Shown here in pieces: positions 1-59,466 of a DNA stretch of 64,000 bases (within the stretch, counting starts at the first letter, position 1; each line of letters opens with the position of its first letter). A model generated the notes under the pieces. That model ran no database searches. It was not told the DNA's origin and saw only the letters and a list, made by a program, of their open reading frames with translations. This DNA comes from an uncultured bacterium (GTDB lineage Bacteria > Verrucomicrobiota > Kiritimatiellia > PWTM01), in assembly GCA_938010045.1 (NCBI GenBank), contig CALLFZ010000011.1:1-64000 (forward strand). Reading direction: 5' to 3'. The position numbers and the translations under genes are program-made.

Positions 1-480
1 GCCGGGCACTTGGTGTATCGTGCCTGTCCCCATCCGGATCCGCGATCGCCGTCGAGCGTCTCCACGCCGAAGCCTGCGAGCACCGAGGCCGCCTTCTACA
101 ACGCACAGGGCGGCTGATGGTTCCCCCGCCACTGTAGCTCCGGCGCTCCGCCGCCGGAGCTATTCGGCGAGCCGAACGGCAAAAAAAACGCTGGGCCGCC
201 TCGCTGGGGCCAGACACCTGGGACGCCCACTGGGGACAGGCACGCACTGTCCCTGTCCGCCGGGCAATTGGTGTATCGTGCCTGGTGTATCGTGCCTGTC
301 CCTAGTTGGATCCGCGATCGCTGTCGAGCGTCTCCACGCCGAAGCCTGCGAGCACCGAGGCCGCCTTCTGGGCGCGCAGTGTTCGGTTGGGGGAAGCACA
401 AGTGCCTCCCGACCCCTCGTCTCACCTCGCAAACAACGATCCACCGCGCCATCGGCTTCGGCTCCTCGGCACCCTTCGCC
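1..480. repeat. Repeat-bearing intergenic region with a duplicated ~100-bp segment
   Basis: No believable gene lies here. Bases 1-97 recur at 259-369; both copies carry a GTGTATCGTGCCTGTCCC motif followed by the same ~70 bp ending in GCCTTCT. The second copy has an extra 14-15 bp tandem of GTGTATCGTGCCTG. Bases 133-162 form a perfect-looking palindromic stem (CTCCGGCG...CGCCGGAG) in reverse orientation. Reverse-complemented, 20-162 matches the composite repeats at 7483-7600 and 59229-59350. GGGGACAGGCAC or its complement occurs at 21-31, 232-243 and 290-301. Confidence 0.8.
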
Positions 481-5893: not shown

Positions 5894-6751
5894 ATGAACG
5901 CCGATTTCGCAATGAAAAAACTGATTAACGATCTCATTCAGCTTCAGGAATTGCTCGAGGCGAGGGCGCAGCAGGAAATGCTGGAGGGCCGCGAGCGGCT
6001 CAGTGAACTCGACGCCGCGATCGAGCGGATGTTCGAAGGCATCCCGGCGGAGTACGCGACGCGGTTCCGTCGTCTGCAGCAGCGCAGCCCGCCGGCGATC
6101 GTGCCGATGGTGAACAATGTCTGCGGCGGGTGCGGCATGGTGATTCCGATCAGCGAGGTCCATGCGATCCACGCGGCCACCGCGCTGCACACCTGTCCCA
6201 CCTGCGCCCGATTGCTGTACAACCTCGAGAGCACGGCCCCCCGCCGCGTTCCCGGAAAGCGAGCGGGTGCGGCCGGAGTTCGGGTCGGCATCGCTCGCTA
6301 CACCTCCCCCGAGTTGATGATCCCCGACCTCACCGCCAACGAGCGCGACTCCGCGATTCGGGAAATCTGCGCACGGCTCGAACGCCAGGGCTTCGTGACG
6401 AATGGCCAGAGCCTCGCCGAAGCCGCATTGCGTCGCGAGGCGATCGCCTGCACGGCCGTCGAGCACGGGTTGGCCTTCCCGCACGCGCGCGGTGTCGAGG
6501 GCGGCGGACTCACCGTCGCCGTCGCGCTCAGCCGCAAAGGCATCCGGTTTGAGCCGGCCGAGCGAGCATTGACGCGCATCATTTTCTTCGTGGTGATTCC
6601 CTCGGCCGCCAGCGCGTTCTACCTGCGGCTGCTCGCGGGTCTCACCCGCACATTCCAGGATGCCGACGCGAGGGCAAAGCTCATCGAGGCCGGCACGCCG
6701 GAAAAAATGTACCGCGCCCTCTGCCAGCTCACCCGCAAAACGGTGCTGTAA
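5894..6751 (+). CDS. Coiled-coil/C4 zinc-ribbon protein fused to a PTS EIIA (PtsN-type) domain
   Basis: A 285-residue soluble protein in two halves. Residues 8-110 form a helical hairpin followed by a four-cysteine zinc ribbon (C77, C80, C101, C104) like those of the CT398/zf-RING_7 proteins. Residues 135-285 are a type-2 EIIA domain with the phosphorylatable His in GLAFPHARG (H197), as in PtsN/EIIA-Ntr. EIIA domains take phosphate from HPr; here the zinc-ribbon half suggests a regulatory role rather than sugar transport. No EI, HPr or EIIBC gene is nearby. The start at 5894 is the first ATG after the intergenic region; an ATG at 5912 is possible and neither has a strong ribosome site. Confidence 0.82.
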   Translation: MNADFAMKKLINDLIQLQELLEARAQQEMLEGRERLSELDAAIERMFEGIPAEYATRFRRLQQRSPPAIVPMVNNVCGGCGMVIPISEVHAIHAATALHTCPTCARLLYNLESTAPRRVPGKRAGAAGVRVGIARYTSPELMIPDLTANERDSAIREICARLERQGFVTNGQSLAEAALRREAIACTAVEHGLAFPHARGVEGGGLTVAVALSRKGIRFEPAERALTRIIFFVVIPSAASAFYLRLLAGLTRTFQDADARAKLIEAGTPEKMYRALCQLTRKTVL

Positions 6752-8334
6752 GGGAATCCTCGCGCGTCCTCGAGACCGGAGAGACCGGGTTACGGCCTAG
6801 CGTCCTCGGAAGAGGGCTTGCCCCGCCCCGCACCCAGCCCGCCCGGGCGGCGGCAAGACCCGCCGGCCGCCGCGGCCGCCACCGGCCGGAACGGCCGTGC
6901 GGTCGCCGCGCACGCTGAGCGCGGTTCGTCCGCAGGAGCGGATCGGGCCCCGGCGGTTCGAGCACGGTGTGCGGCACCGCTCAGTGCCGCTTCAGATCAC
7001 CGCGGCGTGCCCGGTCATAGCCTCGAGCGCTTCGGAAACACGAGTGGTGCCGACCTGCCGTTCCACCAGCACCGGCCAACAGCGCGATGCCAGGTATCGT
7101 GCGCAGCCCGACTCGTCGAGAAGCCCGGAACCGCGAGCCGACCAATCGCGGCGCCGCGCCGAGACTTGAGCCGTGTCTCGCCGCCGCACTCCAACGCTCG
7201 CCGCCACGGCCGAGTCGCCAGGCCCACGACGCCGGATGTTCGGTCTCCAACGCTGGGACGGTCTGCGCCGGCGGCGGTCCCATCGTTGGAAAACCACCCC
7301 AAAAAAGCACAGCCGGACGGCGTTCAGTTCACAACCCCGCACCCCGATGGGGACAGGCACCTCGCAATCGGTACCGGGCAATCGCCTGGCAACCGCCGCC
7401 CAAGTAGGAAAGGAAGGGAAGTAGGAGTAAGTAGGTGCCTGTCCCCAAGCGCCTGTCCCCCATGGCCTCCCCCATGGCCTCACTCCGGCGGCGGAGCGCC
7501 GGAGCTATAGCGCCGGTGAACCCATCACGCCAGCCCTGCACACCGCAGAGGGCAGCCTCGCTGCCCGCGGGCTTCAACGCGGCGGCGCTCAGCAACCCTC
7601 ACCCCAAATGGGGACGGATATCCGACAGAAACCCGCAGCAGATTGAAAGCGAGATTGTTGAGGCGCCTGCGCATCTGCCTGCCCCCTATCGCGGACGGGG
7701 CCAGTGGACTGGGGACAGGCATCGGGGAGAGGCACGGCCCCCTGGGGACACCCTGGGGACAGGCACCTGGTTACCGGCACCTGGTTACCCCCTCGCAACC
7801 CGCTTCGGTTCTCTGCTCCCATGGCGCCCAAAGAGGTGCCTGTCCCCCACGCCGGATAGCGCCGGTCCCCAAGAGCCCACGAGGTGCTTGTCCCCAACGT
7901 CGCCCCAACGTCCGCCAAGGTCCCTACGGCCTCCCAGGTGCCTGTCCCCAGGGAGGCACCAGGGAGGCAACGAGCCGAATAGCCATCTGCTCCGCCGGGT
8001 TTTCGTCGCGGCGAGCGCCGCGACGCCACCCACGTTCCCGTCATCCCCCCTCAAGACCACGTTCAGCCGCTCCGCCTCGCGCTCAGGAGCTTCTCGGCCG
8101 GCAGAGCTTGGAAGAAGCGTTGGACGGTGGACGGTGGGAAGGTCAGGCGAGTCGTCGGGGCGATCCCCACCGAAGAGCGACGGGGTCTAGTCGAAGTTCA
8201 TGCGGGCCTTATCCACCGCGCCCTCTACCCTCGTTCCGGCCTGAATGGTTCGCAACCTTCGTGTTGGTTCGGGCAGCGGCGAGAACCATCGGCGACTGGC
8301 GTCTCCACCCGTGCAATCGGCTCGCCAAACCAAG
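6752..8334. repeat. 1.6-kb gene-free region rich in GGGGACAGGCAC repeats
   Basis: No gene is recognised in this 1.6-kb stretch. From 7347 to 7960 it carries at least eight copies, in both orientations, of a GGGGACAGGCAC-type dodecamer (near 7349, 7436, 7450, 7713, 7757, 7833, 7883, 7939), some paired as GGTTACC-flanked duplicates near 7757-7790. A full composite palindromic repeat lies at 7483-7600. The part before 7340 is plain GC-rich sequence whose minus-strand frames (7000-7480) might be a decayed gene, but nothing in them is recognisable. Confidence 0.7.
7483..7600 (+). repeat. Composite palindromic repeat, copy 2
   Basis: Starts with a 28-bp stem (CTCCGGCGG...CGCCGGAG then CTATAG) and continues with a conserved tail containing the small hairpin GGCAGCCTCGCTGCC and GGGCTTCAACGCGGC. 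The same order occurs at 59229-59350 and, inverted, at 20-162. Confidence 0.75.
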
Positions 8335-8364
8335 TTGACAGTTGAAAGGGCATCGGGCTAGACT
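8335..8364 (+). promoter_or_regulatory. Sigma-70-type promoter for the AraA-like gene
   Basis: TTGACA at 8335-8340, an 18-nt spacer, then TAGACT at 8359-8364. The predicted start of transcription near 8371 lies about 36 nt before the ATG at 8407. Confidence 0.6.
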
Positions 8365-8406
8365 AGTTGGTGGCCTTGCCCATTCGTCCGGGCACAGGGA
8401 GGCACC

Positions 8407-9906
8407 ATGAAGCGGACAGATCCGAAACAACGACGGCAGCCGATCGGCCTCACTTCTCCGGCGGCCCTCACGCCCGCCGTGGGTTTGTTCGGCATCGGGC
8501 TCAACACATACTGGAACCAGTTCGAGGGGTTGCGCGAGCGGCTCACCGGTTACCAGCGCACCATTGCCTCGCGTCTGCGGCGCGCCGGCGCGCGCGTCGT
8601 CGACGCGGGGTTGGTGGATTCGCCCGAGGCGGCGCACGCGGCGGCCGAGGTGTTGCGCCGTGGGCAGGTGGAGGTGGTGTTCCTCTATGTGTCGACCTAC
8701 GCGCTCTCGTCGACGGTACTGCCCGTCGCGCAACAGGTGGGGGCGCCAATTGTCGTACTGAACCTTCAACCTGTGGCTCAGCTCGACTACTCGGCGTTCA
8801 ATGCGCTCGGCGATCGCGGACGCATGACGGGTGTTTGGCTCGAGCACTGCCAAGCCTGCGCGTGTCCCGAGATCGCATGCGTGTTCCGTCGGGCCGGCAT
8901 TCCGTTCCGGATGATCACCGGCGTGCTGGACGAAGCGGCGGTCGCGCGCGAGATCGCCGAGTGGGTGGATGCGGCGCGCCTGCGCCGCACGCTGCGCGAG
9001 ACGCGCATCGGAGTGCTCGGCCACTACTATGGCGGCATGCTGGACGTCTACAGCGACATGACCCGCCTGTCGGCCGGCTTCGGTTGTCATTTCGAACTGC
9101 TCGAAATGTGCGAACTCCACGCGCTGCGTGAGCAAGTGGGCGCCCGCGATGTGCGGGCGAAGATTTCGGAGTTTCAGCGCGCGTTCGATGTCTCGCTCGA
9201 GTGTCCCGCGGCCGAGCTCGAACGCGCCGCGCGCACCTCTGTGGCGCTGGACCGGTTGGTCACCCGCCATCGGCTCGGCGCGCTCGCCTACTACTACGAG
9301 AGCGTCGAAGGCCATCCATATCAAGACATCGTCACCTCCTTGATTCCGGGCCTCACGCTGCTCACAGGCCGCCATGTGCCCGCCGCCGGGGAGTGCGAAA
9401 TCAAAAACGCGATCGCGATGAAGATTCTGGACGCGCTCGGCGCCGGGGGATCCTTTTCCGAATTCTATCTGACCGATTTTGTGGACGACGTGGTCCTGCT
9501 CGGCCACGACGGTCCCGCGCACTTTGAGATCGCCGAAGGCCGCGTTGGTCTCGTGCCGCTACCGGTCTATCACGGCAAGCCCGGCCGCGGGCTTTCGATC
9601 CAGATGGCCGTCCGTCACGGTCCCGCAACGCTGTTGTCGGTTGTCGAGCGGGCGGACGCCCCGGCCGGTCTGTTGTTTGCCGAGGCCGAATCGGTGCCCG
9701 GGCCGACCTTGCAGATCGGCAACACGAATAGCCGATACCGCTTCAGCATCGGTGCGCGTCGGTTCCTCGACGCGTGGACCTCGGCCGGCCCGGCGCATCA
9801 CTGCGCGATCGGCGTGGGGCATCGCTCCGGAGCACTGTGGAAGCTCGCGCATCTGCTGGGATTGCCGGCGGAGCAGATTGGTGTGCCCCCCTCCGGCGCT
9901 TCGTGA
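8407..9906 (+). CDS. L-arabinose/L-fucose isomerase-like protein (AraA superfamily)
   Basis: A 499-residue cytosolic protein of the AraA/FucI-type aldose-ketose isomerase superfamily, most like the AraA (COG2160) side. Likely Mn-binding residues by motif are E329 (PAAGEC, aligning with the GEGDWK region), E352 (SFSEFY, for FMEDY), H367 (LLGHDG, for GSHM) and H464/H465 (PAHHC, for THHTVF). The pattern is complete, so it is probably active, but the spacing and flanking residues differ from true AraA, so the sugar is uncertain. A GGGAGG ribosome site sits 5 nt before the ATG and a strong promoter lies upstream. No araBD-type kinase or epimerase gene is adjacent. Confidence 0.75.
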
Positions 9907-34289: not shown

Positions 34290-34768
34290 GCATCATGCGC
34301 CCGCCCGGATCGGATGGCCGCGGACGCGCGCTCATCATCGCCGCCACCCGCGGCCGCCGCAAGCGACATTGCCCTGAGCCGATGACCCGGTGCGGAGCAA
34401 GTTACGGACCGCGGGAGAATTCTTGACCCCGCGCCCGCCGGCCCCCCGCCCGTCCATCATCATCTGCACCACCACCCCATGGGCGGCTGAGGCCGATAGC
34501 CGTCCAACGATTGGACGGCCAACCGGCACAAGCCTCCAAGCATGGTAGAACGACGCGGACTCTCCGGTTGGGCCGACACCGTGAACACCGTTCGGCCCAA
34601 CCGGACTTCGAACGCCACGATCGGCCTGAGGTCGCCCACGCCCCACCACTACCCCAAGTGTGCGAGGGCCGATTGCGCTGTTGCGAGAACTTGTGCCTGT
34701 CCCGAATGGGCACTTGTGCCCGAACTTGTGCCTGTCCCCAATTGAACAGCGCCATAGGGTCGGGCTGG

Positions 34769-34893
34769 AACCCGGCCCTCCAACGGCCGCTGTAGTTCCG
34801 CCGGTCCCCCGGCGGAAGATTTTGTAGTTCCGCCGGTCCTCCGGCGGAAGATATGGGGGAGAAAGCTCCGGCGGCAGAGCGCCGGAGCTACAG
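34769..34893 (+). repeat. Palindromic repeat cluster (B-B-A order)
   Basis: Two adjacent B elements and one A stem (CTCCGGCGG, CAGAG loop, CGCCGGAGCTACAG). Each A and B unit is self-complementary and could fold as a hairpin in RNA or DNA. Confidence 0.75.
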
Positions 34894-58698: not shown

Positions 58699-59162
58699 CC
58701 GCGGGCGCGGCTCACGCTTCCCTCGGCCCACCGGCGAGCGCGGTGGCGCCCGCGCCTCACCGGCGACCGCGAGCCCGAGCCGCTGGCGGGCATCGCAAAC
58801 CTCGTCCGTCGGCCGTCACCGCGCTGTTTCACCGTGTCCCAACACAGGCGCGCTGTGAATTGTTTGGGCGTGCCGCGGTCGCACTAAAATTGTTGAGTTT
58901 TCCGACGGGCGCGCCGAATCCGATGCCCGCTGAGCCGCGCTTCTTGGCGGTGGCGCGTCCTGGCGCTCGACCCTGCCCTCCTTGCCGGCTCGCCACGCCG
59001 CCTCCCCCCGATTCTGTGCCCGATGTTGTGCCTGTCCCCGTTTCCCTGTCCCCATCACCTCCCCCCCGCCATCACCCGCGAGGTGTCTCTCCCCAACGGC
59101 CTCGCTCCGGCGGCAGAGCGCCGGAGCTACAGCACAGCGCCGCGCCTGCTGCAACGCCGGGG

Positions 59163-59256
59163 AACCCGGCCCTCCAACGGCCGCTGTAGTTCCGCCGGTC
59201 CCCCGGCGGAAGATTTGGGGCGAGAAAGCTCCGGCGGCAGAGCGCCGGAGCTACAG
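59163..59256 (+). repeat. Palindromic repeat cluster (B-A order)
   Basis: AACCCGGCCCTCCAACGGCC, one B element (59185-59214) and one A stem (59229-59256), in the same order as at 34769-34893. Confidence 0.75.
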
Positions 59257-59350
59257 CGCCGCGACAACCATCAGCCATCGCTGCGTGCCGCAGACGGCAG
59301 CCTCGCTGCCTCCGGGCTTCAGCGCGGCGTCGCTCGCCGAGTGCCCGGCC
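59229..59350 (+). repeat. Composite palindromic repeat, copy 3
   Basis: A stem followed by ACCATCAGCC, the GGCAGCCTCGCTGCC hairpin and GGGCTTCAGCGCGGCGTCGC, then GTGCCCGGC and GTGCCTGTCCCC. The order matches 7483-7600 and the inverted copy at 20-162. Confidence 0.75.
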
Positions 59351-59466
59351 GGCCGGTCGTGCCTGTCCCCATCACCCCGTGTCTGTCCCCATCGCCCTGT
59401 GCCCAACACCTCCCAACGCCCCCCCCGCGATCACCCGCGAGGTGTCTCTCCCCAACGGCCCCACTC

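Follow-up and report, generated by a model that had tools for sequence, protein, structure and literature searches.

A composite repeat built from two miniature repeat families in the genome of an uncultured Kiritimatiellia bacterium

The palindromic repeat noticed in a 64,000-nucleotide stretch of DNA from an uncultured Kiritimatiellia bacterium (the window, positions 1 to 64,000 of contig 11) adds a new case to a known class of miniature mobile DNA. It is probably a non-coding mosaic of two miniature, non-autonomous families, the mobility of which depends, or formerly depended, on HUH Y1 transposases acting in trans. One family consists of GTAG REPs and their doublets, the other of mini-elements bounded by inverted copies of a dodecamer.

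Occurrence and structure of the composite repeat

The host genome is 3.2 Mb in size and is present in 49 contigs at 98% completeness. All copies listed in the initial annotation were recovered, at 8-160 (inverted), 7483-7698 and 59228-59336, together with a tail-only copy at 292-379, and every one of them was located beside a dodecamer, as had been stated (Table 1). The description of all copies as intergenic was confirmed for the 7483 and 59229 copies, which lie between genes that are conserved in a congener, while the 20-162 copy lies at the start of the contig, so that its placement could be judged on one side only. The initial annotation had also expected further copies in the genome, and a 107-bp probe from the 59229/59230 copy gave 55 matches in the host's own genome by blastn, about 20 of which were near full length. 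The best non-self E-values of this probe ranged from 5e-25 to 1e-12. A 219-bp consensus matched the host genome at about a dozen sites over the greater part of its length, and the conserved tail of about 95 bp was carried by about 22 copies of the hairpin REP-a.

The composite consists, in this order, of an inverted dodecamer, AACGGCCTC, the REP-a hairpin, CTACAG, the tail of about 95 bp ending in ATCGCGGCTCCAAAT, a dodecamer, a spacer of about 53 bp, an inverted dodecamer and AATCGCGGACGG. The spacer with its two dodecamers was also found alone as a 77-bp unit. The unit claimed at first, a 28-bp stem with about 85 bp of tail, is real but too short, as the true unit measures about 220 bp and includes the dodecamer, the spacer of about 53 bp and the inverted dodecamer. 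Similarly, the 59229 copy had been described as hairpin plus tail and is present as such, but its hairpin at the same time forms one arm of a REP doublet at 59186-59254. In a subfamily at the start of contig 11 and on contigs 12, 29 and 45, the REP, tail and dodecamer were followed by a different sequence. The REP was missing from one composite copy (C20:68181).

Table 1. Repeat features located in the window
Position	Strand	Feature	Remarks
20..160 (match from 8)	-	Dodecamer (20-31), tail and REP-a hairpin (134-159, + strand GTAG) of a composite copy	Contig start
232..303		Dodecamer-spacer-inverted dodecamer unit	72 bp
292..379	-	Tail and dodecamer, without REP	89% to consensus 54-142
6751..8468		Repeat-filled intergenic region	1.7 kb; orthologous gap in congener G001 170 bp, no detectable similarity
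7349..7446		Dodecamer-spacer-inverted dodecamer unit	98 bp
7483..7698	+	Full composite: REP-a, tail, and a spacer between two degenerate dodecamers (the second inverted)	About 220 bp
7483..7508		REP-a of the 7483 composite	ATAG in place of GTAG (- strand)
7755..7847		Dodecamer-spacer-inverted dodecamer unit	93 bp
34728..34739	-	Dodecamer GGGGACAGGCAC	Another close by at 34693-34704, with one mismatch
34792..34891		REPIN without tail: REP-b 34792-34817 and 34824-34849 (+), REP-a 34866-34891 (-)	Head-to-head
59028..59039; 59359..59370; 59379..59390	-; -; -	Dodecamers	59379-59390 with one mismatch
59105..59130	-	REP-a not paired with REP-b	Degenerate dodecamer junction TCTCCCC-AACGGCCTC in front
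59186..59254		REPIN: REP-b (+, 59186-59211) and REP-a (-, 59229-59254)	About 69 bp; two DNA hairpins, z about -5
59228..59336	+	Composite REP-a and tail	REP-a common to REPIN 59186..59254

GTAG REPs and their doublets

The stem of the composite has the features of a GTAG REP, an unpaired GTAG next to a stem-loop palindrome, and belongs to that class. REP-a has the structure GTAG-CTCCGGCG-CTCnGC-CGCCGGAG and is read from the strand opposite to the orientation chosen in the initial annotation. A second type, REP-b, has the structure GTAG-TTCCGCCGG-TCCn-CCGGCGGAA. The host genome contains 103 copies of REP-a and 71 copies of REP-b. Both the high copy number and the dispersal typical of GTAG REPs were observed, and extragenic placement was checked at the sites in the window. 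Half of the 100 listed REP-a copies formed head-to-head pairs with REP-b, and 46 of these 50 pairs had start offsets of 41-44 bp. Judged by its inverted REPs and short, fixed spacing, the doublet is a REPIN; folded as DNA, it forms two hairpins with a z-score of about -5 against shuffles.

The stretch 34792-34891 contained two REP-b copies in tandem followed by an inverted REP-a, which corresponds to a REPIN with a duplicated arm, and the b-b spacing of 32-34 bp recurred on several contigs (C14, C36, C10). A third type of GTAG REP (GTAGGGCTCGAGC.../GTAGGGCGCGAGC...) was seen alongside REP-a in relatives of the same family (G008, G005; loci L043, L063, L071 and L216).

Inverted-repeat mini-elements

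The dodecamer GGGGACAGGCAC was present in 460 exact copies in the host genome, distributed almost equally between the strands (228/232), and the reversed control gave none. Within the window 17 matches with at most one mismatch were found versus 0.66 expected from shuffles. The copies were strongly clustered in a few intergenic arrays, and the preceding base was T in 78% of cases. The mini-elements have the form (T)GGGGACAGGCAC, 20-90 bp of variable sequence and GTGCCTGTCCCC(A). Sampled stretches of the host contained 34 distinct units of this kind with lengths of 46-113 bp and GGGG outermost. Their interiors belong to several unrelated classes, one of which contains a REP-a; in the main class, 7 of 10 units were 77 bp long.

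The terminal motif of the TIRs of TIRYTs is GGGGWSAS, and families of TIR repeats have been reported (PMC3733652; PMC6006769). With GGGGACAG fitting this motif and with the 34 distinct non-autonomous units in inverted pairs, the dodecamer would take its place among the TIRYT TIR repeats on both motif and pairing. A literature search for the dodecamer sequence itself returned nothing relevant.

Tandem micro-duplications of 10-20 bp, such as CCCATGGCCTCCCCCATGGCCTC and GGTAACCAGGTGCCGGTAACCAGGTGCC, were very frequent beside dodecamers (window 7466-7482 and 7755-7847; L206, L207, L012, L013). Nicking or slippage at the element ends may have left them as scars.

Properties of the tail

The tail consensus is open in several frames, and its variability was even across the codon positions (p=0.75), for which reason a coding remnant was rejected. 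A conserved structured RNA was rejected on account of absent covariation, weak folding and the lack of an Rfam match in a search of the window. Most copies folded only slightly better than shuffles, with z between -1.0 and -1.7 and a value of -2.4 for a single strand of one copy, while RNAalifold gave a covariation term of 0.16 for the tail alignment and the counts of stem pairs across 19 copies did not exceed those of shuffles. Compensatory changes in the stems, which had been suggested as a check, were accordingly not supported. Signs of structure were limited to the stem of the REP. The GGCAGC-CTC-GCTGCC hairpin attributed to the tail was perfect in the 7483 and 59229 copies only, but was not supported across the 19 copies.

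Matches to the tail in other genomes were short, GC-rich and inside long ORFs and were taken as chance, and no relatives of the tail were found outside the host genome. The tail is best read as a sequence that was presumably captured as a passenger.

Distribution among related species

REP-a was present in 0, 0 and 1 copies in three congeners and in 96 copies in G008, which belongs to another genus of the family; REP-b was absent from all three congeners. Exact dodecamers numbered 1 in G001, 30 in G002 and 0 in G003. The composite was absent from all of the 57 other genomes searched.

Two orthologous regions in the congener G001 lacked the repeats. The gap at 6751-8468 is 1718 bp long in the host versus 170 bp in G001, and the gap at 58733-59462 is 730 bp long versus 476 bp; similarity was not above that of shuffles in either case. 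As the flanks in the congener are only 69-85% identical (about 15-30% diverged), these are empty orthologous regions and not base-exact empty sites. The empty sites that the initial annotation had asked for were thus found twice, in one congener. The presence/absence variation sought between strains was observed between species, as near-absence in three congeners, the comparison having been made at the species level. The original proposal of a dispersed REP/MITE-type element agrees with the GTAG REP stem, the dodecamer-bounded mini-units, the variation between species and the two empty sites.

Y1 transposase genes

Neither a search with the Y1_Tnp profile nor a comparison with the RAYT type of locus L147 revealed an intact RAYT or TIRYT in the host, and the L147-type RAYT had no match there. 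The single Pfam Y1_Tnp match was below threshold and belonged to a TIRYT-like remnant with a frameshift on contig 1 (L041 896-1776, minus strand; G000:C1, about 3.3-4.2 kb). An apparent tRNA-like stretch was present downstream of this remnant, and no dodecamer or GTAG REP occurred within the examined flanks. The suggestion that a RAYT elsewhere in the genome mobilises the repeat was not borne out, since only the frameshifted remnant was found. As no intact transposase of either type was found in the host, any present activity would be hypothetical. Contigs often end inside the arrays, and it is therefore possible that a transposase gene was lost in an assembly gap.

L147, on a contig recorded as from a Lentisphaerae bacterium, contains a RAYT-like ORF with one REP-a and one REP-b on each side. 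In this other genome a cognate gene thus lies between the same REPs, with scores just below the cutoffs (Pfam Y1_Tnp, 19.1 bits versus 23; NF047646, REP_Tyr_transpos, 79.1 versus 80). Judging from the ATG frame, the ORF is probably frameshifted at its start. Several homologues of this RAYT have mated GTAG REPs with a different sequence beside them (L217, L220, L221, L227, L228).

Inverted ends facing outward, for example GGGGTCAGCCCT or GGGGTCAGGCCT, flanked Y1 ORFs of 327-364 aa in relatives of the same class, and variant GGGGTCAG inverted ends bounded the Y1 genes of about 350 aa in relatives of the host. Outward GGGGWSAS ends were present on both sides of 7 of the 13 long Y1 ORFs from class relatives, with about 0.02 expected per side, and strict two-sided ends were absent from 6 of the 13; other long Y1 ORFs in relatives had end pairs of the GGGGTCGCATCT type. 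At the 12 Y1 loci examined first in class relatives, no exact dodecamer or GTAG REP was found. At L114, in another genome, a Y1 ORF of 339 aa had an exact dodecamer 64 bp from its end; its other side is cut off by the end of the contig. Among the dodecamer loci in distant genomes, L114 was the only one with a clear full-length Y1 ORF, and a weak one was seen at L112. For the C-terminal HTH/DnaA_C-like domain of TIRYT subclass 2.1, a match to Bac_DnaA_C was obtained below threshold in 3 of 9 long Y1 proteins of relatives (best E 0.0016).

Some further observations concern the relatives. In a distant family of the class, dodecamers were followed by TAGT (GGGGACAGGCACTAGT...; G220, G259; L108-L116); those of G220 and G259 probably form a TIR family of their own, to which the Y1 gene at L114 would belong. 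At L229 (G017:C131), an open frame of 1395 codons gave a weak Y1-like match, and GTGG-tagged REP-like repeats (GTGGCACAGGCATTCCTGCCTGTG) lie within it or close by. The genome G036 alone had 232 first-look candidates and 62 scored Y1_Tnp matches, far above its relatives.

Discussion

GTAG REPs (including those of the PVC group), REPINs and GGGGWSAS TIR repeats have all been published (PMC3733652, PMC6006769, PMC3116915). The statement in the initial annotation that no description was known does not hold for the class, while the present mosaic of REP-a, tail and dodecamer was itself not found in the literature searched. The host repeats resemble the known GTAG REPs and REPINs (PMC3733652, PMC3116915) in the unpaired GTAG, the stem of 8-10 bp with a short loop, the high copy number, the intergenic location, the head-to-head doublets at fixed spacing and the RAYT gene between the same REPs in another genome. 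They differ in that the doublet is formed by two different REPs, that about 22 REP-a copies carry the tail of about 95 bp and that no intact RAYT was found. The likeness to TIRtrons and TIRYTs (PMC3733652; subclass 2.1, PMC6006769) consists of the fit of GGGGACAGGCAC to GGGGWSAS, the occurrence as inverted pairs, dimers and clusters, and the GGGGTCAG ends of the Y1 genes of about 350 aa in relatives. However, TIR families are described as moderately abundant (PMC3733652), whereas the host has 460 exact copies; its elements share only 12-13 bp with variable interiors, and an intact TIRYT is lacking. The composite REP/TIR elements and BIMEs of P. putida and P. fluorescens (PMC3733652, PMC2817692) are likewise REPs fused to unrelated sequence in many copies and in mosaic intergenic arrays, but here an intact GTAG REP is combined with TIR mini-elements that have GGGGWSAS-type ends and belong to a different Y1 subclass, and with a conserved, unstructured tail.

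Both modules would be moved by single-strand HUH (Y1) transposases supplied in trans. The cognate enzyme of the REP-a/REPIN module would be a RAYT, and the dodecamer module would represent the end type used by longer TIRYT relatives of RAYTs (about 350 aa, subclass 2.1). One REP-a with its captured tail of about 95 bp would have become locked between dodecamer elements, and the resulting block of about 155-220 bp would then have multiplied to occupy some 20 or more sites, after which the enzymes may have been lost or have decayed in the host. This scheme is drawn from the anatomy, pairing and distribution of the repeats and their linkage to Y1 genes elsewhere; no excision or insertion event was observed. 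Spread of the conserved block could also have occurred by recombination or gene conversion.

The composite might instead be a chimeric miniature transposon that moves as one unit, with sites for two Y1 subclasses and with a bare, non-hairpin end of 12-13 bp being sufficient; we consider this unlikely. Homologous recombination, gene conversion or replication slippage among scattered repeats, with little or no transposition, is quite improbable as the main way in which the arrays spread. The many local tandem duplications at dodecamer junctions and the near-identity of the arrays found where several contigs end (C11, C12, C29, C45) would fit such a process, but the copies occupy different chromosomal sites, are nearly absent from congeners, show the regular architecture of REPINs and 77-bp units and have ends that are linked to Y1 genes elsewhere.

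Known DNA uptake signals are abundant, occur equally on both strands and often form inverted pairs. The hundreds of exact dodecamers, with their equal strands and frequent inverted pairs, match this description, and they could have accumulated through recognition as an uptake or other chromosome-recognition signal (like the Neisseria DUS), with the REP and tail copies merely adjacent. This reading has very little probability and was rejected, as the dodecamers are clustered in few intergenic arrays instead of being spread and are nearly absent from congeners (30, 1 and 0 copies versus 460); moreover, they bound mini-elements with repeated interiors and match the ends of Y1 transposase genes. 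A conserved RNA at gene ends, regulatory or structured, for instance a terminator or an mRNA-stabilising element, would be in keeping with the strong REP hairpin, the folding of the doublets and the influence of REPs elsewhere on transcript ends and stability (PMC3733652), but is hardly credible given the missing Rfam match, the weakly folding tail without covariation and the near-absence in congeners. CRISPR and integron readings were rejected, as no supporting anatomy was present.

Repeat arrays of this kind cause assembly breaks and spurious ORFs. Two questions about Y1 proteins of this kind were left open in earlier work, namely whether the subclass 2.1 Y1 proteins are the TIRYTs (Quentin 2018, PMC6006769) and whether TIRYTs form and maintain TIR repeats (Di Nocera 2013, PMC3733652). 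With its 460 GGGGWSAS-type ends and dozens of mini-units, and with 0-30 copies in its relatives, the host is a good natural test case for both. In this REP-rich lineage within the PVC group, REPs and TIR elements of two subclasses coexist and are fused into one propagated mosaic.
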